Source: a virus. Taken from it: a stretch of 63,108 nucleotides of DNA. Under the pieces are notes generated by a model. That model saw only the letters and a program-made list of their open reading frames with translations. It searched no databases and was not told where the DNA came from. Every line of letters begins with the position of its first letter. The stretch's first letter is position 1. The stretch lies in IMG/VR virus record IMGVR_UViG_3300032322_001062, positions 1-63,108 of that record. One strand, written 5' to 3'. The position numbers were made by a program, and so were the translations under genes. Of this stretch, positions 25,492-53,020 are shown piece after piece.

Positions 25492-26153
25492 CGGTCGGCA
25501 ATCCTAAGATTGTCAAGTCTATCGGCGAGGGCTACGCAACGGCGGGCCTTTCGTTGGCCCCGGCATGGGAATCCGGGCACAACACCTGCCCGAACCACAG
25601 CACGGCTTGCTCTGCTGCCTGCTTGAATAAGGCGGGCCGTGGTGCCATGCGGAATGTGCAGGAAGCGCGCGTCCGTAAGACCAAGATGTTCTTTGAGGCG
25701 CGCGACCACTTCGTCGATCACCTCAACGCCGACATCTACCAGTTCTGCAAGAATGCCCGCGAGTTGGGCATGAAGGTGGCGCTTCGCCTCAACATCCTGT
25801 CGGATATCCGGTGGGAGCGTGAAGGCATCATGAAGCGTTGGCCCGACATCCAGTTCTATGACTACACCAAGATTCCTAACCGGAAGAACCTGCCGTCCAA
25901 CTACAAGTTGACGTTCTCATTCTCCGGCAACAATCTTGATGCTTGCAGGAAGGCGCTCGCCAATGGTATGGGCGTGGCGGTTCCCTTCCTCGATGCCTTG
26001 CCTGAGACTTGGCTTGGGCATAAAGTCATTGACGGCGACGCCAATGACCTGCGTTTCCTTGACCCCACCCCTTGCATCGTGGGCCTTCGTGCGAAGGGTC
26101 CGCTCCGCAAGCTCCCGCAGTCTCCTTTTCTGGGTAACAACCATGCAGTCTAA
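25443..26153 (+). CDS. GP88-like phage protein
   Basis: A 236-residue protein with the layout of the mycobacteriophage gene-product-88 family: GYATAGLSLAPAWESG, then CPNHSTACSAACLNKAGRG with clustered Cys (about residues 50-65), an ALRLNILSDIRWE segment, and FYDYTKIPNR. The Cys-rich segment may bind metal. Biochemical function of the family is not known to me. The frame runs over the start of 26143-26388. Confidence 0.75.
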   Translation: MDRSLINRLSRNITLLTVGNPKIVKSIGEGYATAGLSLAPAWESGHNTCPNHSTACSAACLNKAGRGAMRNVQEARVRKTKMFFEARDHFVDHLNADIYQFCKNARELGMKVALRLNILSDIRWEREGIMKRWPDIQFYDYTKIPNRKNLPSNYKLTFSFSGNNLDACRKALANGMGVAVPFLDALPETWLGHKVIDGDANDLRFLDPTPCIVGLRAKGPLRKLPQSPFLGNNHAV

Positions 26154-26392: not shown

Positions 26393-28483
26393 ATGTTGCT
26401 CGCAACCAAGGACGAAACCATCGAGTCCGCTGGCCTCGGCGAAGGCGGCGCCTTCACGATTGCGGCCTCGGCCAAGGCGTTCGAGGTGCTGTCCTCGAAC
26501 CTCTACCAGAACAAGATCCTGGCGGTTATCCGCGAGATCACCTGCAATGCGGCTGACGCCCACCGGCTGACGGATCGCCCGCTCTCCGACATTGAGGTGC
26601 ATCTGCCCTCCGTCGCCGAGCCTTACTTCAGCGTGCGTGACTACGGCCCCGGCCTGTCCAACGCCGATTGCATCAGCCTTTACACCACCTACTTCCGCTC
26701 GACCAAGGACCACGACAACTCGGCGATTGGCGGCTTCGGCCTTGGTTCCAAGTCGCCGTTCGCCGTGACCGACCAGTTCACTATCGTGTCGCATCACGGC
26801 GGCTGGAAGCGCACCTACATTTGCTTCAAGTCGAACGGCCAGCCGTCCATCTATCTGGCTGGGCAGGAAATCCTTGAGGACTCCGACGACACTGGCCTCA
26901 TGGTCAAGGTCGCCTCGAAGGACTGGTATGCATGGGACCGCGAGGCTAAGAACTTCTTCCAGTGGTGGCCCGAACTGCCCAAGATCACCGGCTCATGGGC
27001 CTTCAAGGTCGATCCCGTTTGGGATGGCATTGGCGATACTGGCATGGTGTCGCCGACCAAGGTGGACGGCCAGCCCGAATGGGCTTTCCTTCCCTTTGGC
27101 AATGGCAATCAGGTGTTCATGGGGCTGGTCACCTACCCGCTGAACCTTGACGCCATTCCTAATATGCCTGACGAACTGCGCTCCTTCTTCACCAACACGT
27201 CTATCTTCCTGCGCTTTGCGGTCGGCGACCTGTCGATCAGCCCGTCCCGCGAAGCCCTGTCCTACGATCCTGCCACCTGCAACGCGATCATTGACAAGCT
27301 CAAGGCTGTGATCCGCGATGCAACGGCGGCTTTCCGCACCGGCCTTGCTGCCCAGCCCGACCTCTACCATGCCCGTCGCCATGTCTACGGCAGCGAGAAC
27401 AAGGGTGTCCTCACCCTCATGGAGAAGCTGGCCACGGCCAACAAGCTGTTGTGGAAGGGCAGGCCGGTGCCCCGCAACGTCAGCAGCAACATCGACAACT
27501 TCGGTGAGGGCGTTCATGCTGACCTGATCGGCAAGAAGTCCTATCACAAGAAGGCGCAGCGTCACGTCCAGAACGCTGTGATGTATGACCACTCGGCGAC
27601 CAGTAAGGACAAGTTGTTCTGGTCTAAGACGCCGCCCCGCAACTACGTCGCTGTGCTGACTGACTATTTCGGCGGCGCCCCTGCTTGGCGTGGTCTTATC
27701 CTGCGTGGCGGTGACTACGACGACATCTGCAAGTTCTGTGAAACGATGGGCCTGCCGCAGCCCATTGACTATGCTTCACTTCCTGTGCCCGTCAAGGTTC
27801 CGACGGCACGCGGCACCGTCAGCCGCACCACTGGCTACACCTTCGATACCAATGCGCTTTCCTACAATCGTTCGACTGTTCCGCTCGACCTCAACGGCGG
27901 CGGTCTCTACCTCGACTTCACCGACGGCAAGCCTCACTACTCGCAGCAGCGTGCGCTCACTGTCCTCTTTTCTGGCGGCTTCTTCGCTGGCAATGAGCCG
28001 CGCGTCATTGGTCTGCCCAACCCGGCCAAGCGCCCCGCCAATCTCAAGCTGGCGCTTGCCCTCAACGAATGGGCCGCGTTTGACACTACGTGGTTTCAGG
28101 AAAACGTCAGCGAGGAATGGCTTGAACGTGCTGTGTGTGCCAACAACATTCGCAACTGGCTGATGCGTAACTTCTACGGCTGCGCCAAGGTTCTGCGCAC
28201 CGCCCACGCCAACAATTCTTGGCGGGGTGCCGACGACTTCTTCAATCTTGTGGCGCCTTACTTTAATGGTTCGGGCGATGTTTTTCAGCCCGGCCACCTC
28301 AACTACGATGCCTTCGCTGCTCATGCTTCCGGGGAGCAGTCCGATGCTATCCAGCGGGGCATCGACGCTGCCCAACAGGCGGAGGTCAAGTGGCATAAGT
28401 TCCTTGATGCCAACCCGATGATGCGCTACACTCCGCTGAACAACGTCCCGACCGACATCCTCAACGCTTACATCAACCGCTGA
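26393..28483 (+). CDS. rIIA: rIIA-like protein (GHKL ATPase)
   Basis: A 696-residue protein resembling T4 RIIA. GHKL/Hsp90-type ATPase motifs: REITCNAADAH (E48, N52, D55), DYGPG (D83-G87) and GGFGLGSKSPF (G114-G118). The C-terminal part is large and without recognisable domain. In T4, RIIA and RIIB together overcome Rex exclusion of lambda lysogens and affect membrane events in infection. The pairing with an rIIB-like gene 17 bp downstream strongly supports the call. Confidence 0.88.
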   Translation: MLLATKDETIESAGLGEGGAFTIAASAKAFEVLSSNLYQNKILAVIREITCNAADAHRLTDRPLSDIEVHLPSVAEPYFSVRDYGPGLSNADCISLYTTYFRSTKDHDNSAIGGFGLGSKSPFAVTDQFTIVSHHGGWKRTYICFKSNGQPSIYLAGQEILEDSDDTGLMVKVASKDWYAWDREAKNFFQWWPELPKITGSWAFKVDPVWDGIGDTGMVSPTKVDGQPEWAFLPFGNGNQVFMGLVTYPLNLDAIPNMPDELRSFFTNTSIFLRFAVGDLSISPSREALSYDPATCNAIIDKLKAVIRDATAAFRTGLAAQPDLYHARRHVYGSENKGVLTLMEKLATANKLLWKGRPVPRNVSSNIDNFGEGVHADLIGKKSYHKKAQRHVQNAVMYDHSATSKDKLFWSKTPPRNYVAVLTDYFGGAPAWRGLILRGGDYDDICKFCETMGLPQPIDYASLPVPVKVPTARGTVSRTTGYTFDTNALSYNRSTVPLDLNGGGLYLDFTDGKPHYSQQRALTVLFSGGFFAGNEPRVIGLPNPAKRPANLKLALALNEWAAFDTTWFQENVSEEWLERAVCANNIRNWLMRNFYGCAKVLRTAHANNSWRGADDFFNLVAPYFNGSGDVFQPGHLNYDAFAAHASGEQSDAIQRGIDAAQQAEVKWHKFLDANPMMRYTPLNNVPTDILNAYINR

Positions 28484-34982: not shown

Positions 34983-35268
34983 CAACACTGCGACCGTCTT
35001 GTCAGTTGACGAGGACTTCATCAAGATCTCACTTGATGACGAGACTGCCGACATGATCTTGTGTCAGTTGCTTCGGCATCAGGCGCAGGTTATCTTCAAG
35101 TGCATGCAACAGTCGGTGACTGAGATCTACGAGGACTATAGCCAGACGTATCTGTGGGAGGATTTGCAGCGCGCTATGAAGCATATCGAGGCGATCAACG
35201 TGCTGCTCGATTATTATGGCCAGCCGATGATTGACCTTCCCGCTGAAATGGAGAGGCGCTCAAAGTGA
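34975..35268 (+). CDS. Small hypothetical protein
   Basis: A 97-residue acidic helical protein from ATG 34975, overlapping DUF3310 by 8 bp and the exonuclease gene by 4 bp. It is directly upstream of the split polymerase and may be part of the replication operon. No family recognised. Confidence 0.55.
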   Translation: MANNTATVLSVDEDFIKISLDDETADMILCQLLRHQAQVIFKCMQQSVTEIYEDYSQTYLWEDLQRAMKHIEAINVLLDYYGQPMIDLPAEMERRSK

Positions 35269-36209
35269 AGCTGGCGCTGGTTGTTGACTGGCCTGCGATT
35301 GACGCAGCGCCGGGCCAGCCCTTCTCCGAGTGGGAGTGGCAGGTCATCAAGGAGTTGATGGAGGCGGCCGGCTTCAAGCCGACCGTCATCCACACTGCCT
35401 TCCGCGCTTACGTCGCCAAGTGGCACACCCTCTTTGCGGGTAGCAAGCCGGGCGGTGAGTTGGCGTCTACGGCTAAGGAAGATCAGGCCAAGCTGGTCGA
35501 GAAGCTGAAGGGCTTCGACATCGCGTTGACGATGGGGCAGCACGCCATGTTCTGCCTGACTGGCGAGACCAAGATCGACACCTTCCGGGGCACCCACATC
35601 GACAGTCCCTTCGTCGAGGGGTTGCAGGTGGTGCCGACCTACGCACCCAACATCTTCGCCCGCATGGCGTGGAACGAGCGGCCCGTTGTGGTGTCGGCGA
35701 TGCGTAAGGCGCGCAAGCGTTTCGAGGACAGGCCGCGCACGGTCTACATCCCCGAGACGGTCGCCGACCTCTACGAGTTCTCGACCAAGCACATTGGTAA
35801 CGAGATCGTGTTCGACGTCGAAACCAACAAGTCGTGCCGCATCACTGAGTTCTCGGCGGCAACCTCGTCAGGCTGCTGCCTCTACGTCCACCTTGAAGAT
35901 CGCAACTACAGGTCGGTGTGGTCGGAGGCTGACGAGTTGGACATCTGGTTGTGGCTGCGGTTCTTGGCCAGCCGCCACGATCTGGCGTGGGGTTTTCATA
36001 ACGCCACCTATGACTTGACTTACCTCGATGCCTACGGTATACGACCGCGTGGCCCGATCTTCGACACGATGCTTCGTCACCACGCATGGCAGCCGGAATG
36101 GGAAAAGAGCTTGGGCTTCCTCGCTTCCCTCCACATTCCGACCCGTGCATGGAAGCATCTGCGGACCAAGGCCAAGAAGGACTTCAACAAGGGCGGCTCA
36201 GTCGACTGA
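35265..36209 (+). CDS. DNA polymerase A, part 1: UDG-like domain plus incomplete 3'-5' exonuclease
   Basis: A 314-residue protein from GTG 35265. Residues about 1-150 resemble the uracil-DNA-glycosylase-like domain that precedes some phage PolA exonucleases (ALTMGQHAM, RGTHIDSP, VVPTYAPNIFARMAW). Residues 180-290 are the DnaQ-like proofreading domain: Exo I FDVET (D184, E186), Exo II HNATYD (N246, D250) and a downstream D267. The domain stops at KKDFNKGGSVD, before Exo III. The missing Exo III is at the start of 36780-38228. Two small genes separate the parts. Confidence 0.85.
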   Translation: MKLALVVDWPAIDAAPGQPFSEWEWQVIKELMEAAGFKPTVIHTAFRAYVAKWHTLFAGSKPGGELASTAKEDQAKLVEKLKGFDIALTMGQHAMFCLTGETKIDTFRGTHIDSPFVEGLQVVPTYAPNIFARMAWNERPVVVSAMRKARKRFEDRPRTVYIPETVADLYEFSTKHIGNEIVFDVETNKSCRITEFSAATSSGCCLYVHLEDRNYRSVWSEADELDIWLWLRFLASRHDLAWGFHNATYDLTYLDAYGIRPRGPIFDTMLRHHAWQPEWEKSLGFLASLHIPTRAWKHLRTKAKKDFNKGGSVD

Positions 36210-36490: not shown

Positions 36491-36823
36491 ATGAATGACG
36501 ACGATGCTGCGATCCGCCGGCTTTGGGCCAGCGTAATTATTCAGGCCCTGATCGACGCCACGTCTGAGCCGAAGACCCCGCAGGGGGTTGTGCATAAGAA
36601 GCAGGCACAGGCGTGGATCACGGCGGAGTTTGGCACGACTGCCCAGAACTTTGAGGGCATCTGCCTTGCTGCCAGCATCGAGCCTGTCAGGGTGCGGACC
36701 TTCATCAAGAACTATGATGGGCCGCCCTTGACGCTTCACATCATGTCCCGTATGCGGGATTCGTTTCTCAAGGGGGACAGTGGTGAAGACTCTTCAGTTG
36801 CAGAACCTGACGATCACGCCTGA
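36491..36823 (+). CDS. Small hypothetical protein overlapping polymerase part 2
   Basis: A 110-residue protein from ATG 36491. Helical with KKQAQAWITAEFG and an acidic C-terminus. Its last 44 bp overlap the beginning of the polymerase gene in another frame. No homing-endonuclease motif was seen. Function unknown. Confidence 0.6.
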   Translation: MNDDDAAIRRLWASVIIQALIDATSEPKTPQGVVHKKQAQAWITAEFGTTAQNFEGICLAASIEPVRVRTFIKNYDGPPLTLHIMSRMRDSFLKGDSGEDSSVAEPDDHA

Positions 36824-38228
36824 AAACCAGGAGATCGTATACAACGCGCTCGACACCATGCAGACGATGGCCCTCAAGGAAATCTTTGACGGGGGCCTGC
36901 TGCCTGCATGGGCGTCGACGACCTACCGCTACAGCGAACTGATGCTGGGTCCCATCATGACCATGATGCGGCGCGGTGTGCAGATCGACACCGAGCGGCG
37001 GGACATGCTGGTGCGTGGCCTGCGTGAACGGGCCGACAAGGTGCAGGCGCGGTTCGACTTCCTGTGCGAGTCGCTGTTCAACACGACCGTCAACCACAAC
37101 TCGACGCCCCAGCTTCAGACTTTGTTCTATGAGTTTCTGGCGATCCCCGAGCAGACCAAGTCCAAGAAGGGTGAGGTCAAGGTCGGGGCCGACCGGGAAA
37201 TCCTCGAACGCATTGCCCGCGACTATCCGCGTGGCGCCCTCTTTGCCAACCACATTCTGCGTATCCGGGACCTCGAAAAGCAGATCGAGTTCCTGTCGAA
37301 GAAGCTGTCGCCCAGCAACCGCTTCCACGCTGCGTTCAATGTGGCTGGCACCGAGACGTTCCGCCTGTCGTCCAGCGAACATCCGTTCCGCATTGGCTCG
37401 AACTTGCAGAACATCCCGAAGGAGGCGCGCACTTGCTTCGTCGCCGACCCCGGCTACATGCTGTTCTACTCGGACCAGCAGGGTGCCGAGGCCCGCATTG
37501 TCGCCTACCTGTCAGGTGACGAGAACTACATCGCGGCTGTCGAGGGCGGCGACTCGCACACTATGGTGGCCAGCATGGTGTTCGGCTTCCCGACTGACCG
37601 CGAACTCGCAGAGCGCGAGTACTACCGGGGCTACTCCTACCGGGACATCACGAAGCGCGGCGCCCACGGCTCCAACTACTATGGCAAGCCGTTCACTTTG
37701 GCGCAGCAGATGAAGGTCGAGACGGCCGTGGCCGAAGCCTTCCAGATGCAGTACTTCCGGCGCTTCCCCGGTATCTCTAACTGGCATGCGTGGGTGGCCA
37801 ACCAGTTGCAGAAGAAGGGCTACCTGATTAGTCCGTTCGGTATCCGCCGCAACTTCTGGAACCGGCGCTGGGATGATGCCACCCTGCGTGAAGCGATTGC
37901 CTTCGTACCCCAGCACTGCGTTGGCGTGCTGATGAACGTGGGCATCTATCAGATTTGGGAGCGGTTCGAGGGCAAGCCCGGAGCCGATGTCCAGATCCTG
38001 CTGAACCTCCATGACGCGGTTCTCGGTCAGGTCCGTATCGACAAGGCCGCCGAGTTGTTGCCGCAGGTCTTGGAGTGCTTGCACTTTCCTTTCCCCGTGA
38101 CTGACATTAATGGGATTACCCGTGAAATAGTTATTCCCTTTGATGTCGAGGTCGGTTACAATTGGGGCAAGGCCAGTGACAAGAACCCGTCTGGCCTCAA
38201 GAAGTGGAGGCCCGATGGCAAGGCATGA
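36780..38228 (+). CDS. polA: DNA polymerase A, part 2: Exo III motif plus polymerase domain
   Basis: About 482 residues from GTG 36780 (or GTG 36783), after GGGGGA. The N-terminus carries the Exo III pattern Y21-NAL-D25. Then the polymerase domain: TETFRLSSSEHP, motif A YSDQQGAEAR (D232), motif B KRGAHGSNYYGKPF (about 292-304), and motif C NLHDAVLG (H411-D412). It replicates phage DNA. The exonuclease active site must be shared with the upstream polypeptide. T7-like length for the polymerase module. Confidence 0.92.
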   Translation: MVKTLQLQNLTITPENQEIVYNALDTMQTMALKEIFDGGLLPAWASTTYRYSELMLGPIMTMMRRGVQIDTERRDMLVRGLRERADKVQARFDFLCESLFNTTVNHNSTPQLQTLFYEFLAIPEQTKSKKGEVKVGADREILERIARDYPRGALFANHILRIRDLEKQIEFLSKKLSPSNRFHAAFNVAGTETFRLSSSEHPFRIGSNLQNIPKEARTCFVADPGYMLFYSDQQGAEARIVAYLSGDENYIAAVEGGDSHTMVASMVFGFPTDRELAEREYYRGYSYRDITKRGAHGSNYYGKPFTLAQQMKVETAVAEAFQMQYFRRFPGISNWHAWVANQLQKKGYLISPFGIRRNFWNRRWDDATLREAIAFVPQHCVGVLMNVGIYQIWERFEGKPGADVQILLNLHDAVLGQVRIDKAAELLPQVLECLHFPFPVTDINGITREIVIPFDVEVGYNWGKASDKNPSGLKKWRPDGKA

Positions 38229-41081: not shown

Positions 41082-41495
41082 ATGGCAGGCTTCCTTGCCA
41101 TGCTGCCGACCTTGGTGCCAGCCCTGACTGAGGTGCTGGACCGGGTGATTCCTGATCAGGCTGCGGCAGCCAAGGCCAAGCTGGAAATGGAAGCCAAGCT
41201 GCTTGAGGCCGCCACCGCGCAGGCTTCGCAGCAGGCCGAAATCAATAAGACCGAAGCCCAGCATTCGTCCATTTTCGTGGCAGGCTGGCGCCCATACATT
41301 GGTTGGGTCTGCGGCATGGCGATTGCGTGGGCTTTCCTTGTGGCGCCGATGCTGTCGTGGCTGCTGCCGGTGCTGGGTGTGGTGCCAGTGGTGCCCCCGC
41401 TTCAGACGGAGTTCCTGCTGGAACTGGTGTTTGCGATGCTGGGTCTGGGCGGCCTGCGTACCTTCGAGAAGCTGAAGGGAGTGGCGTCCCGGTGA
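41082..41495 (+). CDS. GTA-type 3-TM holin
   Basis: A 137-residue protein. An amphipathic, charged N-terminal part is followed by AGWRPYIGWVCGMAIAWAF and two more hydrophobic segments, ending LGLGGLRTFEKLKG. This matches the GTA_holin_3TM pattern. It would form inner-membrane lesions that release the endolysin. The stop overlaps the endolysin GTG. Confidence 0.85.
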   Translation: MAGFLAMLPTLVPALTEVLDRVIPDQAAAAKAKLEMEAKLLEAATAQASQQAEINKTEAQHSSIFVAGWRPYIGWVCGMAIAWAFLVAPMLSWLLPVLGVVPVVPPLQTEFLLELVFAMLGLGGLRTFEKLKGVASR

Positions 41496-41866
41496 GCCTG
41501 AACGCTAGGAGCAGGGAGCGCCTCAAGGGCGTGCATCCCGACCTCGTTGCCGTCGTCGAGCGAGCCGCCGCGATTGGGCCTGCCTTCATCGTGACCGAGG
41601 GCCTGCGCACCGTCGAACGCCAGAAGCAGTTGGTTGCGGCCGGTGCTTCGCGGACCATGAACTCTCGCCACATTACAGGCCATGCCGTTGATCTGGCTGC
41701 GCTTGTGGACGGGAAGGTCCGTTGGGACTGGCCGCTGTATCATAAGCTGGCTGCTGCCATGAAGCAAGCGGCAGCCGAGCGAAACGTCGCTATTATCTGG
41801 GGTGGCGACTGGAAATCCTTCCCAGACGGACCCCACTTTGAACTGGCCCGCGTGGCCTATCCATAG
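41492..41866 (+). CDS. Endolysin (M15 L-alanyl-D-glutamate peptidase)
   Basis: About 124 residues from GTG 41492 (GTGA overlap with holin stop). Metal-site motifs: SRHITGHAVDL (HxxxxxxD) and a late PHFEL. Like T5/Ply500-type endopeptidases it would cleave the peptide stem of peptidoglycan. It lacks a signal peptide, so release requires the holin. Confidence 0.9.
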   Translation: MSLNARSRERLKGVHPDLVAVVERAAAIGPAFIVTEGLRTVERQKQLVAAGASRTMNSRHITGHAVDLAALVDGKVRWDWPLYHKLAAAMKQAAAERNVAIIWGGDWKSFPDGPHFELARVAYP

Positions 41867-41876
41867 GAGAAGTAAA

Positions 41877-42806
41877 ATGGCTGATGATATTCGTAGTCGC
41901 GCAGGACTTGATCCCCGCGCAGAGGCTGCCCGGCGCCGTCGTGAAGGTGAGGCCCGTCGTGCTGCTGCCCGTGAGGCCCTGACGCAGGAGCAGATGCGCG
42001 AGCGTACCATGCGTGAGATGGAGCAGCGCCGCGCTGCCCCTACCCGCTCCGCCGCCGCTCCGGCTGCCCCACCTGCGGGATCGGCCGCACCGGGTCAGAG
42101 CTTTTCGCAGCGCCTTCAGGCAGAGGCTATGCGCCCGCCCACGTCTGGTCCGGCAGGCCAAGCTTCACGCGCTCGCATGGGCGCCGGGGCGCTGGGCGCT
42201 GGTGCCGCTCTTGGCGTAGCGGGCTATGAGGCGTATCGCCGGGGCATGTTTGATCGCACCCGCCCGGAAGCACCGGCCACTGAAGCGCCTGCGCCTGCTC
42301 CGCGCATGCGAGACGAAGATATGCAGACGGCAGATATGCCGGGCAATCTTGCGGCGAACCGTGGCGGCGAACAGGCGGCAGCCCGTATGCGGGAAGTTGA
42401 CATGCAGCGCAGTGACGTTCCCGGCAATCGTGCGGCAAGCCCCCCGCCTCGCCCGCGTCCTCGCCCTGCTGCCCCGGCCCGCAATGAGATTTCGGCAGAG
42501 CGTCTGAACCAGTTGGCAGATGGTGCGGAGCCGACGGATCAGCGGGAGCGCGAGATTCAGGCGCGGCTGATGGGTCGTCGCCAAGAGCTTGAGGAGCGGG
42601 GCACTGCCTTCAAGAAGGGTGGCATGGTGAAGCAGAAGGCCAAGCCGGTTGCCAAGAAGGCGGGCGGCATGGTGGCTGCGAAGCCGGCGGCGAAGAAGAT
42701 GATGAAGGGCGGCATGGTTGCCAAGCCCAAGGCTGCTGTTAAGGCTAAGGCCAAGCCGATGCCCGCCTTCAAGAAGGGCGGCATGATTAAGAAGGGAAAG
42801 AAGTAA
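41877..42806 (+). CDS. Basic Ala/Arg-rich protein with KGGM-repeat tail
   Basis: A 309-residue protein from ATG 41877. N-terminal Arg/Glu-rich coiled coil (about 1-60). Near 100-115 is a short glycine-rich hydrophobic segment (MGAGALGAGAALGVAGYEAY) like a transmembrane or fusion helix. Two MRxxDMQ...DMPGN repeats occur at about 145-190, and the C-terminal 50 residues have four KKGGM/KGGM units in lysine-rich context. It may be a virion-associated protein that binds DNA or membrane. No family assigned. Confidence 0.65.
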   Translation: MADDIRSRAGLDPRAEAARRRREGEARRAAAREALTQEQMRERTMREMEQRRAAPTRSAAAPAAPPAGSAAPGQSFSQRLQAEAMRPPTSGPAGQASRARMGAGALGAGAALGVAGYEAYRRGMFDRTRPEAPATEAPAPAPRMRDEDMQTADMPGNLAANRGGEQAAARMREVDMQRSDVPGNRAASPPPRPRPRPAAPARNEISAERLNQLADGAEPTDQREREIQARLMGRRQELEERGTAFKKGGMVKQKAKPVAKKAGGMVAAKPAAKKMMKGGMVAKPKAAVKAKAKPMPAFKKGGMIKKGKK

Positions 42807-43298: not shown

Positions 43299-43540
43299 AG
43301 GCACCGCAGAAGTCGCTGGTCGATTGGACCAAGCAGAAGTGGCGCACCAAGTCTGGCAAGCCCTCGACGCAGGGACCGAACGCTACAGGTGAACGGTATC
43401 TGCCCGAGGCTGCCATCAAGGCTATGCCGGCCTCCACTTATGCGGCGAGTAGTGCGGCGAAGCGGAAGGCGACGCGGGCTGGCAAGCAGTTTTCACAGCA
43501 GCCTGCCAGCGCCGCCAAGATTGCGAAGAAGTTCCGCTAG
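43295..43540 (+). CDS. Small basic conserved phage protein
   Basis: About 81 residues from GTG 43295. Pattern SLVDWTKQKWRTKSGKP, TGERYLPEAAIKAM, TRAGKQFSQQP and a Lys-rich end, found in many marine phage genomes (recollection). It ends in the TAG at 43538-43540, which shares CTAG with the opposite gene's stop. Confidence 0.7.
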   Translation: MKAPQKSLVDWTKQKWRTKSGKPSTQGPNATGERYLPEAAIKAMPASTYAASSAAKRKATRAGKQFSQQPASAAKIAKKFR

Positions 43541-45681
43541 AACGGATACTCCGTCGGCGCATTGTAGTTGTTGACGGTCTGTTCCCAGATCGCCGCACCG
43601 GCGCCCTCGCCGTGGAATGTGACGTTGATGCGGTTCTCGACCAGCCAGCGGTTCCACTGCCCCAGATCCTGCATCGCAGCCACCAGTTCGCCGGTCGTCA
43701 GGTAGGACTTCTGGTCGGCACCTAGGTTGACGCGCATCAGCGACTGCTTGATGTCGTCCTTGACGGTGTCTTCCGGGTAGAAGAAGTCGTAGCCGTAGAA
43801 CTCAAAGCGGCGGAACCCCATCACAAAAGCCAGCATAGGAATCCGGGTCGCCGAGCAGGTGCCGCCCGCCACAACCATGCCCGTATCGAAGGACGCCGGC
43901 TTGGCTGCGAGCGTGGCCTGCGTGTGGGCGTGCCACCCAAAGATTTGCACGCCCTTTTCTTCGAGGACCTTACGCACTGAAGGATGCGTCATGGTGGCGA
44001 AGAGGAACTTGTCCTCCGGCCCGACGTCCTTGAAGAGGTCGGTGCGGATCACACCATGCGTAGACTTGCCGTCGACCGGGCGCGGATCGAGAATGACGGT
44101 CCAGTCAGGCGTGATGCCGGCCTTCTTCAGGACAGGCAGCGCGTGCTTCACCGCAAAGATCACAGCACCGGCAGCCTGCTTGGTGCGGATTTCTTCGAGG
44201 AAGGACGGCAACGTGGGGCCGGCGCTGACCAGCAGAGCGGTCTTGGTGTGGGCCTGATAAGAGCCAATCCAAGTTGAGATGGCGGCAGCGTTATCCGCAA
44301 TATGCTGGATTTGCTCGCCCTTGTCAACTGAATCGACCGGCTTCACCTGAATGCGGGTCTTGAGTTCCGGCATCCTGTAGCCGTCGCGGACAACGAGACC
44401 GAAGGAGATAGTCTGCGTCAGGCCAGAGTAGCCGTCGCCGCTGGTGATGATGCGCTTCTGACCGCCGACTTCCTTCATCACCTTGCGCGGACCTTCCGGC
44501 GCACCTTCTTCCTCGTTGACGATCACGTCATCGAAGACGATGAAAGGCACGTGCTTCAGGCATTCGTAGTCCGACTTGGTCGTCTCGTAGCTATGGCCAC
44601 CGTCTATGTAGGCAAATGTAGAATCTGCTACAACGGCGGCCGAGGCGGGCAGGGTCTTGAGGGTGTTGCCCTTGATGAGCGAGAAGGCAAAGTTCAGGCC
44701 CTTGCGCGCCATCAACTGACTGTAGTTATTGAGGCGGTTGGTGACGATCCAAGAGTCGGCGTGAGGCTTGGTGTGGCCCTCATGCACCCGGTCGTTGCCA
44801 CCCTCGAAGGTGTCGAAGCCGACATAGGAGACGGACGTGACGCCCGTGGCGAAGGCTGCTTCTGCCATCTGGATTGCGCGGCTGCCGTTCCAAGTGCCGA
44901 CCTCGACGATGCGGGCCGCGCCGGTCTCGGCGATGGAAGTGGTCAGCAGTTCACACAGGGTTTCGTAACGGGCCGGCGCACCCAGTGCAGGGTTGGCGAT
45001 GGTCTGCTTGTCAGGGCCCTTGTAATGCACCATGTAGGCGGCGAGCGGCGACTGATGGAAGGCATCAAGGCCGAGGCAACCCGGCGACAGATTCTTGATT
45101 TGTAGGCCATGTGCCTGGTGCAGCAGGGCAATCCGGTCCAGAACTGCGTTGTCGTGGGCCTTCTTGTAGTGGAAGGCTTCGAGCGAATTGTAGAGGCCCC
45201 AGTAGTCGGCCAGCAGCGAGGCACCCTTGACGGTCGCCAGATTGAAGGCGAACCAAGAGCCTTCGCTCTCCTTGACGGAACGGCGATACAGATACGTCAG
45301 ATGGTAGTTGTCGTCAAAGAGTTCGGCCAGCAGGTCCTCATCGACCGGCCGCATGGTCTCGGTGTCCGCATCGACGAAGCCAATCCAGTCGAGGTCCGGC
45401 GTCACAGCGGAGGCGAGGGCCACCGCCTTGAAGCAGTATTCCAGAGAGGGGCCGTCCTTGGCCTTGGCACCGAGGTGCGCCTTCAGCTTCTGGAAGGAGG
45501 CAGTATCTTCAAGGGCGTGGAAGGTGACGTTCGGAAACTCAGGCACGTTACCTTCGAGGTCATGGTGCCAGATTTCGAGGGCGATATCGGCGGGCCAGAA
45601 CTTCGTGAAGGACTCGGCGAAACGCAGGCCATACCGTTCCCATGAGGTCGGCCCAATCGTGGTGATAATCTTAGCGCGCAT
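43537..45681 (-). CDS. Three-domain glycosyltransferase / methyltransferase / MAF (DUF115)-like fusion
   Basis: A 714-residue protein from ATG 45681, overlapping the upstream gene by 11 bp. Domain 1 (1-230): GT-A-type fold with the acidic GFVDADTE (D104, D106) motif. Domain 2 (250-390): class I methyltransferase with IVEVGTWNGS (258-267) and YIDGGHSYE (358-366). Domain 3 (480-714): Rossmann domain like the motility-accessory/MptE DUF115 family with LLVSAGPTL (483-491) and ITPDWTVILDP (523-533). It probably modifies a glycan or protein-linked sugar. No signal peptide or TM. Confidence 0.8.
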   Translation of the reverse strand: MRAKIITTIGPTSWERYGLRFAESFTKFWPADIALEIWHHDLEGNVPEFPNVTFHALEDTASFQKLKAHLGAKAKDGPSLEYCFKAVALASAVTPDLDWIGFVDADTETMRPVDEDLLAELFDDNYHLTYLYRRSVKESEGSWFAFNLATVKGASLLADYWGLYNSLEAFHYKKAHDNAVLDRIALLHQAHGLQIKNLSPGCLGLDAFHQSPLAAYMVHYKGPDKQTIANPALGAPARYETLCELLTTSIAETGAARIVEVGTWNGSRAIQMAEAAFATGVTSVSYVGFDTFEGGNDRVHEGHTKPHADSWIVTNRLNNYSQLMARKGLNFAFSLIKGNTLKTLPASAAVVADSTFAYIDGGHSYETTKSDYECLKHVPFIVFDDVIVNEEEGAPEGPRKVMKEVGGQKRIITSGDGYSGLTQTISFGLVVRDGYRMPELKTRIQVKPVDSVDKGEQIQHIADNAAAISTWIGSYQAHTKTALLVSAGPTLPSFLEEIRTKQAAGAVIFAVKHALPVLKKAGITPDWTVILDPRPVDGKSTHGVIRTDLFKDVGPEDKFLFATMTHPSVRKVLEEKGVQIFGWHAHTQATLAAKPASFDTGMVVAGGTCSATRIPMLAFVMGFRRFEFYGYDFFYPEDTVKDDIKQSLMRVNLGADQKSYLTTGELVAAMQDLGQWNRWLVENRINVTFHGEGAGAAIWEQTVNNYNAPTEYPF

Positions 45682-46441
45682 CTGTGTAGGCTCCGAGGAG
45701 TTCATTCGTCCAGAAGTCATCGAAGGCAGTAGTCTGCCGGTCAACCATGCCCGGCACGGGCGGTCCATAAGTAAAGTGGATGCCGTTGATAGGCAGCGGC
45801 CGGTTGTTTTCTTCGGCGTCCAAGCCCTTGGTGGTGGTCGGGCTGTAGTTTGGGACCCAGTGCCACGACTCAGAAAGGTAACCGATGTCGGAATCATCGA
45901 GCCACTCGAAGGTGTGGAGGCGGTTGCCGCTGGCCATGTTGACCATCTCGACGGTCGGCAGCTTGGTGGACTTGAGGTTCCACAGCATGAGGGCCGACCA
46001 CAGTTTCCTGTTGTAGCGGGACTGCACCTGCCCGTCCATCTTGGTGGTGCCGGTCGGCGAGAAGTTATGGGGCACGACCATCACCGTCTTGGACGGGTCG
46101 GCTTCCTTCAGCAACTTATGGATATCGTCGAGCCACAACCAATCACAGTCGGTGAACAGCGCCCAGTCGGTCACGCCATCCAGCTTGGCAACGATGGGGG
46201 TGAGGAAGCGGGAGTGCGAGAACTGCACGCTGAACGGGCGGCCATCCCGCTCGTCCATGTAGGAGCCGTCCTCATTGATGCGCCACGGCCGATCAAAAAG
46301 CTGGCGGCGCCGCAGGTCCAAATGCTCTAGATGCCGTATCTCTACTGGCTTGCTGGCATATGCCCTGACGGACGACTCGGTTACACGGAGAGCCTCTGGC
46401 TCGCGGTGATCAACACCAATGTAATAGGCGAATTTCGACAT
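45671..46441 (-). CDS. Glycosyltransferase-like protein
   Basis: A 256-residue protein. FTDCDWLWLDD (about residue 96) is the DxD metal-nucleotide-sugar motif of GT-A enzymes. A PHNFSPTGTTKMDGQ segment and HFTYGPPVPG near the end are typical of small glycosyltransferase folds. First gene of a two-gene cassette with its own promoter; its product may act on the same glycan as the fusion protein next to it. The acceptor is not known. Confidence 0.78.
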   Translation of the reverse strand: MSKFAYYIGVDHREPEALRVTESSVRAYASKPVEIRHLEHLDLRRRQLFDRPWRINEDGSYMDERDGRPFSVQFSHSRFLTPIVAKLDGVTDWALFTDCDWLWLDDIHKLLKEADPSKTVMVVPHNFSPTGTTKMDGQVQSRYNRKLWSALMLWNLKSTKLPTVEMVNMASGNRLHTFEWLDDSDIGYLSESWHWVPNYSPTTTKGLDAEENNRPLPINGIHFTYGPPVPGMVDRQTTAFDDFWTNELLGAYTDAR

Positions 46442-46447
46442 GCCCGC

Positions 46448-46476
46448 AGGATACTATTCCTGCCCAGACCTGTCAA
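46448..46476 (-). promoter_or_regulatory. Promoter for the glycosyltransferase cassette, leaderless type
   Basis: Minus strand: TTGACA (46476-46471), 17-bp spacer, TATCCT (46453-46448). The predicted start falls on the A of ATG 46441, and no Shine-Dalgarno sequence is seen. Confidence 0.6.
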
Positions 46477-46493: not shown

Positions 46494-47591
46494 TTAGTCT
46501 TCGTCATCCAGTAAAGCAAGACCGCCTGCGGCATACCGACGCCGGATGTCGATGATCTCAGGATCAAATACGACGTAGTTCTGGATGCCACCTTGATCGG
46601 CACTGCCGGGCGCTGTATAGCGAACGCCGGGAACACCCGCTTCTCGGAGCGCACCAGAGGCTTCTTCGGGTGTCATGTTCAGGCTGCGTCGATAAATGTC
46701 GCGCCCCGTATAGCTTGGGTCAACGTCTAGGTTAAAGCGTTGCAAGGCCCCACGAACCTCGGGTGTCTGGCCGGCTAGTGTCTCGTCCCAATTAAGGAAC
46801 TCTTGAGGCCGGGCGCGAACGTCGACCTCATAGATGTGGCCGGTAGGAATGTCGGGCAAAGCAGACCGGGGAACACTCTGCAATGCTTCAAGTCTAAGCA
46901 CTGGACGCAAAGCCGCATCAATGTACATTTGCCGTTCTTCGGGTCTGTACCTAGGACTTGAATAAAGCTGTCGCGTTTGTTCTAAATACTCCCTAGCGCG
47001 CTGCAAGTCCCTATCCAAATATTCTGGGCTTTGCTTATATTCACGCAATTCAATGGGAGAATATTCATATTGACCAATGCGAATATCGTCTTTAAAAGGA
47101 GTCAGACGATCCCGATAACCACGGGCAAGGTTTTCGCTTTCCGAAAGATTAACCCCCTGCCCGTAGGTTTTCGCGCCAGTGCCCGTCCCAATCTTGCTAA
47201 GATCAAATCGCTCAAAGGCATAGGGCGAGCCATGATAGGCGCGGATGAAACGAAGCAGGCGGTTGGCTTCGGCTTCGCTGGGTTCGGCTGCTGCTAAAGC
47301 TGCTGCCGCCGGGAGGCGAACCAGTCGCCCGCCGGGACCAAGTGCGACCATCAATGCTGCGTCGAGCGGGCTCTGGGGCAGCAACACGTCAGCGGCCAGT
47401 TGCCCCGCTTCGCGGCCAGCAGTACGCAGGGCCTGCATCTGCTCGGCGCGGGTTGGCTCAGTCGTCCGGCCGGTGTCCCGCTTCATCCGAGACAGCAGCC
47501 GCGCATCATACTCTTCGTCGGAAATCTCGCCGCCCTCGGCAAACCGCCGCTCAACGAAATCCATGAAGCGGGAGCGAGCGTCATCCGGCAT
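46494..47591 (-). CDS. Virion-associated protein with ART-like YHGSP domain
   Basis: A 365-residue protein. N-terminal AEGGEISDEEYD segment, an Ala-rich hydrophobic patch (LAADVLLPQSPLDAALMVALG), then AYHGSPYAFERFDLSKIGTGTGAKTYGQGVNLSES (about 115-150). That sequence is the start of a domain common in phage polyvalent proteins and likened to ADP-ribosyltransferases. The C-terminus repeats an AAGGLALLDDED tail. It starts 1 bp from the giant ejection gene and may be ejected with it. Enzyme activity is not shown. Confidence 0.65.
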   Translation of the reverse strand: MPDDARSRFMDFVERRFAEGGEISDEEYDARLLSRMKRDTGRTTEPTRAEQMQALRTAGREAGQLAADVLLPQSPLDAALMVALGPGGRLVRLPAAAALAAAEPSEAEANRLLRFIRAYHGSPYAFERFDLSKIGTGTGAKTYGQGVNLSESENLARGYRDRLTPFKDDIRIGQYEYSPIELREYKQSPEYLDRDLQRAREYLEQTRQLYSSPRYRPEERQMYIDAALRPVLRLEALQSVPRSALPDIPTGHIYEVDVRARPQEFLNWDETLAGQTPEVRGALQRFNLDVDPSYTGRDIYRRSLNMTPEEASGALREAGVPGVRYTAPGSADQGGIQNYVVFDPEIIDIRRRYAAGGLALLDDED

Positions 47592-50500
47592 TAGAAGCCT
47601 CGCTCGTCAAGCATGCCACGGGTTTCGAGCATCTGGCGAATGGTTTCGCGGCTGCGCGGGGCGCCACGCTGGATGAGGCGTTCGGCTTCGGTGGTGCCTT
47701 CGAGACGGTCGCGCACGCGATCCATGATTGCACGCTGGGTAGCGGGCGTGCTTAGGTACACGGAGTCGTTGCGGCCACGGGCACGCAGGCGGTCATTGCG
47801 CGCACGGATATCGGCGCGCAGTTGATCAAGCTCCCGGTCGAACCGCAAAGCTGCTTCGTTGTCGCCGCGCTCTTGCGCCCGCACACTCTCTGCGATAAGA
47901 CGCGAAATAGAGTTGTTGGCCCACTCAGTGTAGGGGCGCGAAGCCTTAGAGTACTCTTCGGCGTAGCGGCGAGCCGTGCGCAGATCAAGGAACTCCGGCG
48001 GCGGCAGGCCCACCATCACGCGAATCCAAGTGGGTACGCCCTGCTCCTTGTCAAGCTCGGCGATCTGTTCGCGGGTGATGGTGGTGCGGCCTTCGGGAGT
48101 GCGCACTTCTCCGGTGCCATAGCCAAGGTTGATGCCGCGCACAAAGTTGCCTGCGAAGCGCGGCAGGATACTGGCGAGCGAGTTGAGGTAGTCGCCTTCC
48201 TTGGCGAACTTGTAAGCGTCAACGGCCATGCCGGGAAGCGACCCAACGGGACCGAGGAGAAGGGCAGGGCTTACAGCCATAAGGTCTTGGAACTGGAAGG
48301 GGTTCAGGCCAAGGCGCGTCGAACCGGTGAACATGCCCAGCGCATGCGGCAGGCCGCGCGTAACGAAGTCGGCCGTGAACTCGCCACCGATTAGAGGCAT
48401 GTTGAACGCATATTCGTAGAGGTCTTGGTCGAAGTTCTCAACGTCCTTCCAACCAAGCTTAATGACTTCTTCGAGAGCGTCGCGCAGAAGTTCTGCACCG
48501 GGGAAACCCCACACACCCGCAAGAACAACAAGCGGCACAGTATAGTATGCGAGGCCGAGGGCACCAACCTTGGCAAGTTCTGGGTTGCCTTCACGGACAC
48601 CGCGAAGAGCATTGGCGCCTTGGCGCAGAAATACTTCCGTCATCTTGAACGGATAGGACATAAACTGGAAGGCAACTTCGTTGACCGGCGTGGCGCGCAG
48701 AATCTTGGCGCGGTCTTCCGGGGTCATGATGAACTGACTGTCATCGACGCGGCTCATCGCGTATTCGAACGAGGCGTCAGGGCCCGTGAAGTTATAGCCG
48801 TCGATGCGGTTGGCACGCTCAATGACGGCCGGGTTTACTTCTGCGAGGCGGAACGCCGCAAGGAAGGCGGCGGCGCGGTTGATCTGTTCGGATGCCTGCT
48901 GCGGCTTACCAAACAGGTTGATCAGTGTGTTGAAGGCTTTGGCGACGGAAGCTGCCTTGGGAATGCCCGCGTTAATGAGGGTCTGGGTGCGGACACCTTC
49001 AGAGATGGCGCCCATGTCGACGGTCATGGCGGGAGGGAACGCACCAAGCTGGGCAGCCCGGCGAAGCGCCTCGCGTTCTTTGGGGGTACGGCCCGCATTG
49101 ACGACGGCGTTGTCGAATTGGCGCGTGTCGGTGCGAACCGCCTGACCAAGGTATTTGATGGCGTCGTTGAGGGCGCCCTGACCGATGCGCAGTGTCTGAC
49201 GAACATTACCGCTATCGCGCATGAGCAGAGGCATCGTGCTGTTGTACGTCGACGTGAAGTTCATCATCATCGAGTCCAGCGCCGGACCAATGAAGTAATG
49301 GAAGCCGAGGGTCTTCAGTCGCGCAACAAGCATAGACTCGACGGGGCGGCTGGCGTAGTCGCGCAGGTCGTTAAAGTATTCTTTGTTGGGCGCGTCAAGA
49401 TTTTCGATTGCCCTGTTGAACGCCTTGTTAGTGTAGGTGCGGGCCTGCAACTTGCCAAGGGCAGCCATGTGGCGGGGCACCACGTCCGTCAGGTAGGTGC
49501 CTGCGTCGAGCGCCGTGAACGGGATCATGATGCCTTGGTTGGGCCGCATGAAATCCTTGGCAGCAGCCTTGTCCAGCGAACTCATGAAGCTACGCAGGAG
49601 GTTCTGCGCCTCGCTGTCGTTGCGAATGCTGCGCACACTATCAAGCTGCTTCAAGAACTTAGCGAGGGCATCAGAGCCATCGCGGAGAGCAGAGGCTTCT
49701 TGGTCGCGGGTGAACTCGACAGGCGCAGGCGTGATATAGAACTTGTCAGGCGTGAAGCCACGGCGAGCAAGTTCTTCGCGCGCAAAGACTTCGGGGTCTG
49801 GGCGGCGACCACCCTTCTTGTTGAGGGGCAGCGGGTTGAAGGACACCATCTTGACCGGCTTGCCAACGCGCTGACCATCAGCGCCGCGCTTGTAGGCAGC
49901 GATGAAGTGCGTGCCCTGCGCCGTCATGGGCAGGTAGTAGGGGTTGCGGACGCGCTCGAACTCCTGCATGGTGCGGAAGCCTTCGGGCGATGCTTCGCGC
50001 AGTTCGGCTTGCGGGATTTCCCACAGGTCCTTGTTGCGGTTACGGCGCCAGAACTCATTGAGGCGAGCCTTGGCAACGGGGTCGGTCGTTGCCGTCGGAT
50101 CGAAATAGTTGATGGCGTTGGCAGCGGTCCAGTAGTCCCACGCACGATTGTTCGCGGCGACCTGGCTGTTAAAGAAGGCCCGCTCCGGCTCGGAGAGGGT
50201 GGCAACGCCGGGCGCTTCGCGGCCGAGAGTGGACGATTCTTCACGAAGGCGGGCCACGCGCTCCAACTGTTGCGACGTTAGGTTGCCGGCGCCCTCGGCA
50301 AGCAGCGGCTGGATTTCCGCATTGTATTGGTTGCCGCGCCGACGCATAGCGTTCATAACGCGGCCGACCGGACGCACAGCCGGGTTCAGCTTGGAGGCGG
50401 TGAGGATGGGCGAGTAGAACCAGCGGCCCATGAAGCCCATGCCCATCCGGGTGGCGCGCTTGACGGTCGCGTGAGCGGTGGCGGTGTCAGGCGGAAGCTG

Positions 50501-53020
50501 GCCAACGAGGGGCGAGTAGACGCCGTTGGCCGTCTGCGTCAAATCGACGTCGGCTTCGGGCGTGTTGTCCGACACAGGCGACCATTCCTGCGGCGGGTTC
50601 TGCTGTGTCATCTGCCCCGGCTGAGACTTCTCGGGGCTGCGCTCCGGGCCACGCGGGTTGGACGGCTCTTCGACCGTGGCCGGATCAATGCCGGGCACTT
50701 CCGCCAGTCTCGACTGCGTCGGGTTCGCCGCCGGGCGTCCAGCCCGAATATCATCTACAGTCTGCTGCAACCTTTCGGGCGTAGTCTCCCGCTGAACGCC
50801 GCCCACATTAACAGTCGTTCTCGCAGCCGGCTGCGCCGGTTCGGCTTTTCTCAGTGGACGGCGAGGACCAAACTGATCACCCTTGATTTCAATGTTTAAG
50901 GTAAAACCGTCCGTAACACCTTGGCCATATCCGTCAGGGTCTTGTTGCTGGTTCGCCCAAGATGCCGGTACGTCAACATACTGCAACTCAGTGTTCGGAC
51001 CACGATAATTTTCTGCGTATGTGCGCGACGAAGAAAACCAAGCGTCGCCCGTATACCTGCCGGGCGTAGCCGATCCATGATAAAGACGAACCATGCCGGG
51101 CGGAACAGGAGGTTCTACAGCAGGGGCGGCTTCGGGAGCAGCGGCCACGCGAACAAGTCGATCCGGCCGAGAACGAATATCATTCGAGCCGAAACTTGTG
51201 CGCTCACCGCGTTCACCGCGAACAGCCACACGCGGCCCTGCCGGCGTATCTATGGTATTTTCGACTGTCCACTCATTCACATTGCCGGTTTCACTTGTCG
51301 TGCGAACACGGTCACCCACGGCGATAGGCGCGCCCACACTGTCAACCACAGCGGGCGCGGCTTCGGGAGCGGGTTGCTGGCGGGGCAGGGTTTCGGCGCC
51401 GAAGCGGCGGGCCGTGAGCGGGTCGACCTGCCCGAGCGTGCCGGCTTCGATGGCTGCGTTGAGATCAGCGACTTCGCGCAGGGAGGCTTCCCGTTCGCGT
51501 TGCAGTGCTGCGGCTGTTGGGGCTGCTTCGGCGGCTTGCTGGCGGGGGCCGAACGAAACGCTGTAGCTGGTTGCGGTAGGCTTGGCTAGGATACCTTCTT
51601 CCGCCAGGCGGTTCAACTGCTCGGTAACGAATTGGCGTTCATCCTTCGTGAGGCGACGAGGCTCAATTCCGCTGGAGCGCAGCGCCGCGTTGGCCACGTC
51701 AATGGCCGAGAAGCGATTAAGGCTGGTGAGGTTGCCTTCTGCGGCTGCCTGCACCAGATTGCCGAGGAATGTGTCGGGCTGGGTAGCCGCAAAGTTGGAG
51801 ATGGCAGAGGTGCGGATGCGGCCGACTTCGCGCAGGTATTCGTTCTGGCGAGCGGAGTTGACCCACTGGGCGCGCGCTTCGGGCGTAGCCATGCCGGGAG
51901 GCGGCGCGAAGCTCGGGTTGGCAGCGACGGCGGCATCAACGTCTTCGGGCGTGCGCAGCAGTTCAGGCGACTGCGGAATGGGTGTCTGCGGAAAGAAGCC
52001 CTGTGCCGGGGCTGCCGGCTGCGGCTGCTGGGCGGCACGCTGTTCGTCGGCTTGGCGCTCAGTATCGGCCGCCGCCTGCTGCTGACGCTCGGCTTCGGAA
52101 GGACCCGCACGACCAATGGCACGAACGGCAGTGCCTGTGCCAGCACCACCAATGGTGCCGACGAGGCCCGCTTCCGCAACGCGCTCGGCGCGCTCGGCAA
52201 GGTTAGCTTCGCCAGTGGTAACGCCGATGGTGCCTTGGCGCAGAGTTTCGCCGAGGATTTCGCCTGCTGCACCGCCGGCTGCGGTCTGACGAATACCGCC
52301 TGCCCGACCACCAAGGATGCGCTGCGTCACGTTGCTGACGACACCGGGCGCGACTTGATTGCCGAGGGCACGGCTCAACGCCTGCTCGACATAACGGTTT
52401 TCGATGCGGCCAATGATCGGACCGAGGGTTACAGAGATGCGACCAGCGAGTTGCGGATCGACACCTTCTGCGGTAAGACCCTGATAGAGTTCGTCAATGC
52501 CGCCGGCAAGAAGGCTGCCGCTGACGCCAATGCGCGCGCCCGTTACAGCGCCCGGAACCGCGCCAGCACCAAGAGTTGGGACGCCGGCTGCGACAGCACC
52601 GATACCGGCGCCAGCAAGACCGCCTGCCAGAATGCCACCGATGGAGCCAGCAGCCTGGCCCGCGTAAGCTTTGAGCGCGTCGATGACGTTGAGGCTGGCA
52701 AGATCACGGAGTTCCGGGGCGCGCGTGCCTTGCTGGGTGTCGCCCTGCGTAGCCAAGCCTTCGCGGAAACGCTGAAGTGCAGCCCGTGTTTCGGGCGCGT
52801 CAATGGCAGCAGCGCCTGCTACGGCGGCGCCAACCGGCGAGGTGATCTGGCTACGGAACTGCTGACCGGCGCTCTCGAAGAAACCTTCGATGGGCATCTG
52901 GCGGCGCAGCGTCGGCCACCGATAGTCAACGTAAGCGAGTGCGTCTTCGCGGGAGGGCGCACCCTCAACAACGAAGATACGCCCGTCAGGAAGTTCGAAC
53001 TCGTAATTACCGACTGCCAT
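47591..53020 (-). CDS. Giant internal virion (DNA ejection) protein
   Basis: A 1,809-residue protein. Residues 1-60 are a conserved start (YEFELPDGRIFVVEG, ALAYVDYRWP). Residues about 120-320 are Gly/Ala-rich hydrophobic helices with many GxxxG (AGGLAGAGIGAVAAG), suited to a membrane channel. A Pro/Gln linker follows. An ART-like RLYHGS...DAWFSSSRTYAENY domain occurs near 643-735. The C-terminal half is long, helical and rich in arginine. Position after other internal proteins and size resemble T7 gp16. It would form the periplasm-spanning conduit during DNA entry. Confidence 0.78.
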   Translation of the reverse strand: MAVGNYEFELPDGRIFVVEGAPSREDALAYVDYRWPTLRRQMPIEGFFESAGQQFRSQITSPVGAAVAGAAAIDAPETRAALQRFREGLATQGDTQQGTRAPELRDLASLNVIDALKAYAGQAAGSIGGILAGGLAGAGIGAVAAGVPTLGAGAVPGAVTGARIGVSGSLLAGGIDELYQGLTAEGVDPQLAGRISVTLGPIIGRIENRYVEQALSRALGNQVAPGVVSNVTQRILGGRAGGIRQTAAGGAAGEILGETLRQGTIGVTTGEANLAERAERVAEAGLVGTIGGAGTGTAVRAIGRAGPSEAERQQQAAADTERQADEQRAAQQPQPAAPAQGFFPQTPIPQSPELLRTPEDVDAAVAANPSFAPPPGMATPEARAQWVNSARQNEYLREVGRIRTSAISNFAATQPDTFLGNLVQAAAEGNLTSLNRFSAIDVANAALRSSGIEPRRLTKDERQFVTEQLNRLAEEGILAKPTATSYSVSFGPRQQAAEAAPTAAALQREREASLREVADLNAAIEAGTLGQVDPLTARRFGAETLPRQQPAPEAAPAVVDSVGAPIAVGDRVRTTSETGNVNEWTVENTIDTPAGPRVAVRGERGERTSFGSNDIRSRPDRLVRVAAAPEAAPAVEPPVPPGMVRLYHGSATPGRYTGDAWFSSSRTYAENYRGPNTELQYVDVPASWANQQQDPDGYGQGVTDGFTLNIEIKGDQFGPRRPLRKAEPAQPAARTTVNVGGVQRETTPERLQQTVDDIRAGRPAANPTQSRLAEVPGIDPATVEEPSNPRGPERSPEKSQPGQMTQQNPPQEWSPVSDNTPEADVDLTQTANGVYSPLVGQLPPDTATAHATVKRATRMGMGFMGRWFYSPILTASKLNPAVRPVGRVMNAMRRRGNQYNAEIQPLLAEGAGNLTSQQLERVARLREESSTLGREAPGVATLSEPERAFFNSQVAANNRAWDYWTAANAINYFDPTATTDPVAKARLNEFWRRNRNKDLWEIPQAELREASPEGFRTMQEFERVRNPYYLPMTAQGTHFIAAYKRGADGQRVGKPVKMVSFNPLPLNKKGGRRPDPEVFAREELARRGFTPDKFYITPAPVEFTRDQEASALRDGSDALAKFLKQLDSVRSIRNDSEAQNLLRSFMSSLDKAAAKDFMRPNQGIMIPFTALDAGTYLTDVVPRHMAALGKLQARTYTNKAFNRAIENLDAPNKEYFNDLRDYASRPVESMLVARLKTLGFHYFIGPALDSMMMNFTSTYNSTMPLLMRDSGNVRQTLRIGQGALNDAIKYLGQAVRTDTRQFDNAVVNAGRTPKEREALRRAAQLGAFPPAMTVDMGAISEGVRTQTLINAGIPKAASVAKAFNTLINLFGKPQQASEQINRAAAFLAAFRLAEVNPAVIERANRIDGYNFTGPDASFEYAMSRVDDSQFIMTPEDRAKILRATPVNEVAFQFMSYPFKMTEVFLRQGANALRGVREGNPELAKVGALGLAYYTVPLVVLAGVWGFPGAELLRDALEEVIKLGWKDVENFDQDLYEYAFNMPLIGGEFTADFVTRGLPHALGMFTGSTRLGLNPFQFQDLMAVSPALLLGPVGSLPGMAVDAYKFAKEGDYLNSLASILPRFAGNFVRGINLGYGTGEVRTPEGRTTITREQIAELDKEQGVPTWIRVMVGLPPPEFLDLRTARRYAEEYSKASRPYTEWANNSISRLIAESVRAQERGDNEAALRFDRELDQLRADIRARNDRLRARGRNDSVYLSTPATQRAIMDRVRDRLEGTTEAERLIQRGAPRSRETIRQMLETRGMLDERGF

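Follow-up and report, generated by a model that had tools for sequence, protein, structure and literature searches.

A phage fusion protein joining predicted glycosyltransferase, methyltransferase and Maf-like DUF115 domains forms a conserved two-gene module with a second glycosyltransferase

P0001 is a 714 aa protein in which a predicted GT-A glycosyltransferase domain, a class I methyltransferase and a DUF115 (Maf-like) domain are joined in one polypeptide. Together with its neighbour P0002, a 256 aa DxD glycosyltransferase, it forms a module that is near-restricted to viruses in the samples searched. As the pair recurs nearly unchanged in hundreds of aquatic phages and not in sampled cells, it probably serves, late in infection, to decorate a component of either the phage or the host surface.

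The P0002-P0001 gene pair

The window, i.e. the whole stretch of DNA analysed, is a viral record of 63,108 bases. It is tailed-phage sequence with homologs of terminase, portal, ejection-protein, tail and RIIA. The pair and the domains of P0001 are located as follows.

45671..46441, minus strand: P0002, the leading gene of the pair, a DxD glycosyltransferase of 256 aa (phrog_28018, E 1.3e-50; D98/D100; WbbM profile match, E 0.0044; present in 49/50 loci)
43537..45681, minus strand: P0001, 714 aa fusion, GT-A (predicted)/class I methyltransferase/DUF115-Maf-like (open frame, Pfam, AlphaFold2 model, 49 further non-redundant homologs)
44998..45681, minus strand: P0001 domain 1, predicted GT-A glycosyltransferase, residues 1-228, DADT at 104-107 (fold matches to alpha-1,3-GalT and LARGE1)
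44377..44976, minus strand: P0001 domain 2, class I SAM methyltransferase, residues 236-435, E260-x-G-T-x-N-G and DGGHS (PF13578, fold matches)
43540..44376, minus strand: P0001 domain 3, DUF115/MptE-like (Maf-like), residues 436-714, SAGP, VKH, LDPRP, STHG, GGT, TTGE and QD (PF01973, model)

The P0001 start codon, ATG at 45681, is preceded by GGAG and is the sole upstream ATG in several homologs. The stop codon occupies 43537-43539. P0002 lies directly upstream and overlaps P0001 by 11 nt. A start at the first ATG of a longer, mechanically called open reading frame (786 aa) was rejected: the extension lies inside P0002 and is absent from homologs. The preliminary description had assigned the cassette to 43537-46476; the gene pair stands, but the end at 46476 is 35 nt past the P0002 start codon.

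All 65 homologous frames that are not cut by a contig end (among the best 79 loci of at least 591 matches) contain the same three domains in fusion. This excludes a frameshift or mis-joined genes and agrees with the initial view of P0001 as one product instead of separately encoded domains. Purifying selection acts on all three domains (dN/dS 0.04-0.17; the value for L075 was disregarded as an artefact of ungapped codons and unaligned indels), and both the fusion and nearly invariant catalytic residues are kept down to 30-36% identity. Therefore, the frame is not a chance product. Pfam, fold matches and conserved motifs likewise support the proposed composition of glycosyltransferase, methyltransferase and DUF115/Maf-like domain next to a DxD transferase.

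The DUF115 domain of P0001

P0001 is a member of the DUF115 family. PF01973 matches residues 468-637 with an E-value of 3.3e-18 and 66.5 bits (curated cut-off 34.6) and is found in 49/49 aligned homologs (E <= 0.01). LDPR, GGT, TTGE and STHG are kept in 50/50 homologs, STHG with one G-to-D exchange. Modelled alone with 50 sequences, the 279 aa domain yielded pLDDT 90 and pTM 0.90, and its solved matches are Maf (5MU5, E 5e-8), MptE/HPPK from M. jannaschii (E 3e-5) and human ST8SiaIII (E 1e-3). 5MU5, which is the Maf of Magnetospirillum, is also the best solved match (E 3e-9) of the full-length AlphaFold2 model (11 sequences, pLDDT 77.5), whose inter-domain arrangement is uncertain (pTM 0.48). 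Thus, the C-terminal domain matches DUF115 by profile and by fold, as had been proposed.

Profiles were needed to obtain matches among PDB sequences since phmmer with P0001 as single sequence gave nothing significant there. The profile search ranked Maf (E 0.0017) before HPPK (E 0.14). MptE/HPPK has a TM score by target length of 0.68, above that of Maf, though Maf is better by fold E-value. With Maf ahead by both profile and fold E-values, MptE was rejected as closest relative of domain 3.

Maf enzymes are known from flagella. In a profile alignment, P0001 and Maf/PseD share the local motifs G-x-GPS, '.L...GI.P' and 'GFR..LFG.D' in addition to the DUF115 fold. Unlike Maf, P0001 carries GT-A and methyltransferase domains before DUF115 and nothing after it. 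PMC11339370 describes Maf with a degenerate Rossmann-like domain on the N-terminal side of the central DUF115 and a helical one on the C-terminal side, and reports that Maf enzymes O-glycosylate Ser/Thr of flagellin. In NCBIfam, P0001 has only a domain-level match to the flagellin modification protein PseD (NF050051), with 35.3 bits versus a cut-off of 670. P0001 is thus no orthologue of Maf/PseD, as its architecture differs and its score lies far below the curated PseD cut-off. The window contains no member of the NeuB or CTP_transf_3 families (NulO synthesis/activation); supply by the host is conceivable. The previously suggested Maf link therefore holds at the level of the fold and not at that of orthology. 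By inference, P0001 would work like a Maf-type glycosyltransferase.

The methyltransferase and the two putative GT-A domains

PF13578 (Methyltransf_24) matches P0001 residues 259-377 (E 1.9e-8, 35.6 bits, cut-off 26.3) and 48/49 aligned homologs. In the full-length model, the fold neighbours of this domain are MeT1, Rv0187 and CalS11, mainly small-molecule or sugar O-methyltransferases. Of 50 homologs, 49 retain the SAM motif E-x-G-T-x-N-G (48 with its T), and the one without it, L211, is a natural 540 aa form that lacks the methyltransferase; this domain is therefore dispensable in at least one lineage.

Domain 1 is predicted to be a GT6/GT8-like GT-A enzyme. This assignment is based on the full-length model, which matches alpha-1,3-galactosyltransferase and LARGE1 with E about 1e-7, whereas the DUF115-only model yields no GT-A match. 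D104-x-D106 is kept in 49/50 homologs. A Pfam search with domain 1 found no confident named glycosyltransferase family, the best being Glycos_transf_2 at E 0.26. The designation of the adjacent gene as a DxD transferase was correct: P0002 belongs to phrog_28018, and D98-x-D100 is invariant in 11 aligned relatives. A P0002 profile search detected a weak, distant match to WbbM around the DxD segment.

Distribution of the module

With P0001 as the only query, 49 loci were recovered; the P0001 alignment yielded at least 573 related viral stretches and the DUF115 domain by itself at least 591. Homologs share 30-95% identity, and their contigs range from 33 to 61% GC. In all but one of 50 non-redundant loci, a P0002 homolog immediately precedes the P0001 homolog, and most of these gene pairs overlap or are no more than 60 nt apart. 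Both proteins co-diverge, with a distance correlation of 0.91 overall and of 0.83 and 0.80 within clades.

PHROGs contains no family for the P0001 fusion, and tblastn against 50,697 phage records did not detect it, including in Pelagibacter phage HTVC023P, which is closest by terminase (37%). A scan of 84,980 species genomes revealed three loci only, all in MAGs. Two of them, L210 and L211, have phage-like neighbours (P0002 homolog, holin). The third, L212, has bacterial surroundings and encodes GT and MT domains in a protein that lacks DUF115. Among 385 genomes of one class and 198 of another, no triple fusion was present outside phage-like contigs. Based on these results, a cellular origin visible in databases was rejected. 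Since the cellular scans used either short patterns or a permissive first filter, which could overlook distant forms, 'essentially virus-restricted' is a fair wording.

The preliminary description knew of no phage protein of this build. This is true for the open-access papers on phage DUF115, PF01973, MptE or Maf that were searched: none describes the GT-MT-DUF115 architecture or its UniProt members. However, UniProt holds A0A6J7X5Q0 from an uncultured Caudovirales phage, also 714 aa long, whose DUF115 domain is 87% identical to that of P0001. The 'MptE-like' phage proteins A0A6J5PVH5, A0A6J7XC21 and A0A6J5L5C1 (540-700 aa) have the DUF115 domain in common with P0001 by fold. The UniProt relatives carry only the annotations 'methyltransferase domain' or 'MptE-like', and this would be why a viral function of the module has been overlooked.

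Genomic context

The pair is the last in a minus-strand operon of the window that also contains genes for tail, ejection and other virion proteins; holin and endolysin genes run towards it from the opposite strand. The following neighbours are relevant.

47591..53020, minus strand: 1809 aa giant late protein, upstream in the operon (phrog_11358; diverged phages have homologous giant open reading frames directly before the module)
46494..47591, minus strand: 365 aa protein with a weak ADP-ribosyltransferase-like region (PF18760 ART-PolyVal, E 0.005, below cut-off)
41303..41866, plus strand: endolysin (phrog_465, E 1e-58)
41082..41495, plus strand: 3-TM holin-like protein, transcribed towards the module (phmmer link to module-adjacent open reading frames of other phages)

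The 1809 aa giant is a probable internal virion/ejection protein; the genes next to it include one for a DNA-ejection protein. A giant gene lies directly upstream of the module in 10/10 loci of the window clade and in L211 and L039. Six further diverged contigs (L296-L301) have a giant open reading frame homologous to the 1809 aa protein directly before the pair. The L176 homolog of the holin-like protein matches PF11351 (GTA_holin_3TM) with E 3.6e-14. The largest group, which is low in GC, has the pair between ribonucleotide reductase/nuclease/HSP20 genes and holin/TerS and not beside virion genes, which counts against an action on virions. The common theme of all positions is the late/lysis region.

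Separate-gene versions of the module also exist. The prophage locus L079 has, after genes for a lambda-like decoration protein D and a major capsid protein E, a small DUF115-like open reading frame, a P0002-like glycosyltransferase and a standalone domain 1 (hhalign 99.7%). The small protein comprises 201 aa with the motifs ASGPS and GASRIVLLGVD and matches DUF115 with an hhalign probability of 66% (E 5e-5; Pfam E 0.006, below cut-off). In CcrColossus, a putative tail gene precedes DUF115-like gp126 ('alpha-2,3-sialyltransferase-like'; PF01973 E 1.5e-7, below the Pfam cut-off) and the P0002 homolog gp129. In contrast to the module, the genes are separate here and no methyltransferase is fused. 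That the fused parts are also neighbours as separate genes supports one shared pathway. The two small DUF115-like proteins fall below the Pfam cut-off, and this, too, counts against the virion as site of action.

Proposed function

Among the functions first offered – alteration of host glycans, modification of virion proteins, block of superinfection – the genomic context favours a late or virion-linked action. Virion-protein glycosylation is preferred because the Maf relatives glycosylate protein, membrane segments are absent and both fused and split versions are often found beside virion genes. A hydrophobic segment (19-residue Kyte-Doolittle > 1.9) was found in none of 50 P0001 homologs, which is consistent with cytosolic action, and P0002 has no membrane segment either. 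It is quite possible, if short of probable, that the module works in the cytoplasm late in infection and builds an O-methylated glycan onto a protein of the virion.

In detail, the two proteins would be made with the late genes and constitute a cytoplasmic glycan-assembly module. The Maf-like DUF115 domain may start the sugar chain on a Ser/Thr residue of some virion protein or, alternatively, cap it; both acceptor and reaction order are presumed. The two putative GT-A domains, one per protein, would lengthen the chain with sugars, presumably hexoses, from host nucleotide-sugars, and the methyltransferase would O-methylate a sugar. This would yield a short glycan with a methyl cap, carried by a protein that is assumed to belong to the virion (capsid, tail or internal). 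More tentatively, many aquatic tailed-phage lineages might possess a self-contained, phage-specific protein O-glycosylation system composed of a Maf-type enzyme, two GT-A domains and an O-methyltransferase in only two polypeptides, which places methyl-capped glycans on virion proteins.

The main rival, a close second, is remodelling of the host surface. Here, a terminal sugar would be added to host LPS, O-antigen or capsule and methylated, so that progeny avoid debris and superinfecting phages cannot adsorb. This is a serious though somewhat doubtful possibility. In its favour, sugar O-methyltransferases often cap O-antigen chains, and Pelagibacter phage Mosig EXVC030M places homologs of domain 1 (21% identity) and of P0002 side by side, alongside two genes annotated as methyltransferases. 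These are separate genes, and the DUF115 profile finds no homolog there. The likeness of P0002 to the O-antigen glycosyltransferase WbbM (6U4B) near the DxD motif (E only 0.0044, and WbbM is a large bacterial LPS enzyme) and the published reading of pelagimyophage clusters with GT8-type enzymes as LPS-directed (PMC7029224) both point to LPS and count against virion glycosylation. However, P0001 homologs and P0002 lack membrane segments, the module sits late, next to genes for internal virion proteins and lysis, so that the time for altering a surface is short, and the separate-gene versions adjoin capsid and tail genes.

It is improbable that DUF115 acts as an MptE-like pyrophosphokinase or another non-sugar enzyme and that the module makes a small molecule instead of a glycoconjugate. 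PF01973 takes its name from MptE, and among solved structures M. jannaschii HPPK ranks second, but Maf is ahead by sequence and fold E-value, DUF115 is fused to a glycosyltransferase and a methyltransferase in every uncut frame of the best 79 loci, and pterin pathway genes were not found among the window open reading frames scanned. Attachment of a sugar to a hypermodified base of the phage DNA is the least probable reading: many phage glycosyltransferases act on DNA and one group has the module near nucleotide-metabolism genes, but the window lacks a thymidylate synthase/hydroxymethylase family member, domain 3 has a Maf/sialyltransferase-like fold, and the fold neighbours of the methyltransferase are mainly small-molecule O-methyltransferases.

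Significance

The acceptor question is directly testable, since the proteins are small, devoid of membrane segments and probably expressible. A triple fusion with a near-obligate second transferase that is found in hundreds of phage contigs and is essentially absent from sampled cells indicates a common viral function. Should virions prove to be the target of the module, glycosylation of proteins would belong to the normal course of virion maturation in abundant aquatic phages.

Genes outside the glycosyltransferase module

Further genes of the window are:
25443-26153, +, GP88 family protein (PF17338, E = 1e-38)
26393-28483, +, RIIA lysis-inhibitor homolog (phrog_612, E = 2e-95)
35265-36209, +, family A DNA polymerase, exonuclease-like part
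36780-38228, +, family A DNA polymerase, polymerase part (separate ORF)
41802-42806, +, 334-aa protein with a repetitive Lys/Ala/Gly-rich C-terminus (FKKGGM-type repeats)
46494-47591, -, 365-aa protein with an ADP-ribosyltransferase-like region (PF18760, E = 0.005, weak and below the cut-off)

The RIIA homolog is located in a genome of podovirus-like type. In the diverged contigs L296 and L301, homologs of both polymerase ORFs were found close to the module. The FKKGGM-repeat protein is common to nine related loci, where it is encoded close to the module. An HGSA stretch of similar appearance to the region of the 365-aa protein is present in its 1809-aa neighbour, reminiscent of virion-borne ADP-ribosyltransferases.

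Related proteins with two of the three domains

Two loci encode shorter proteins:
L212:7983-9302, GT-methyltransferase protein without DUF115 (Thalassobaculaceae MAG)
L211:7528-9150, GT-DUF115 natural variant of 540 aa without the methyltransferase domain

The surroundings of the former gene are apparently chromosomal, and the gene may encode a cellular protein related to the N-terminal two thirds of the fusion protein. The 540-aa variant is suited to testing the contribution of the methyltransferase domain.
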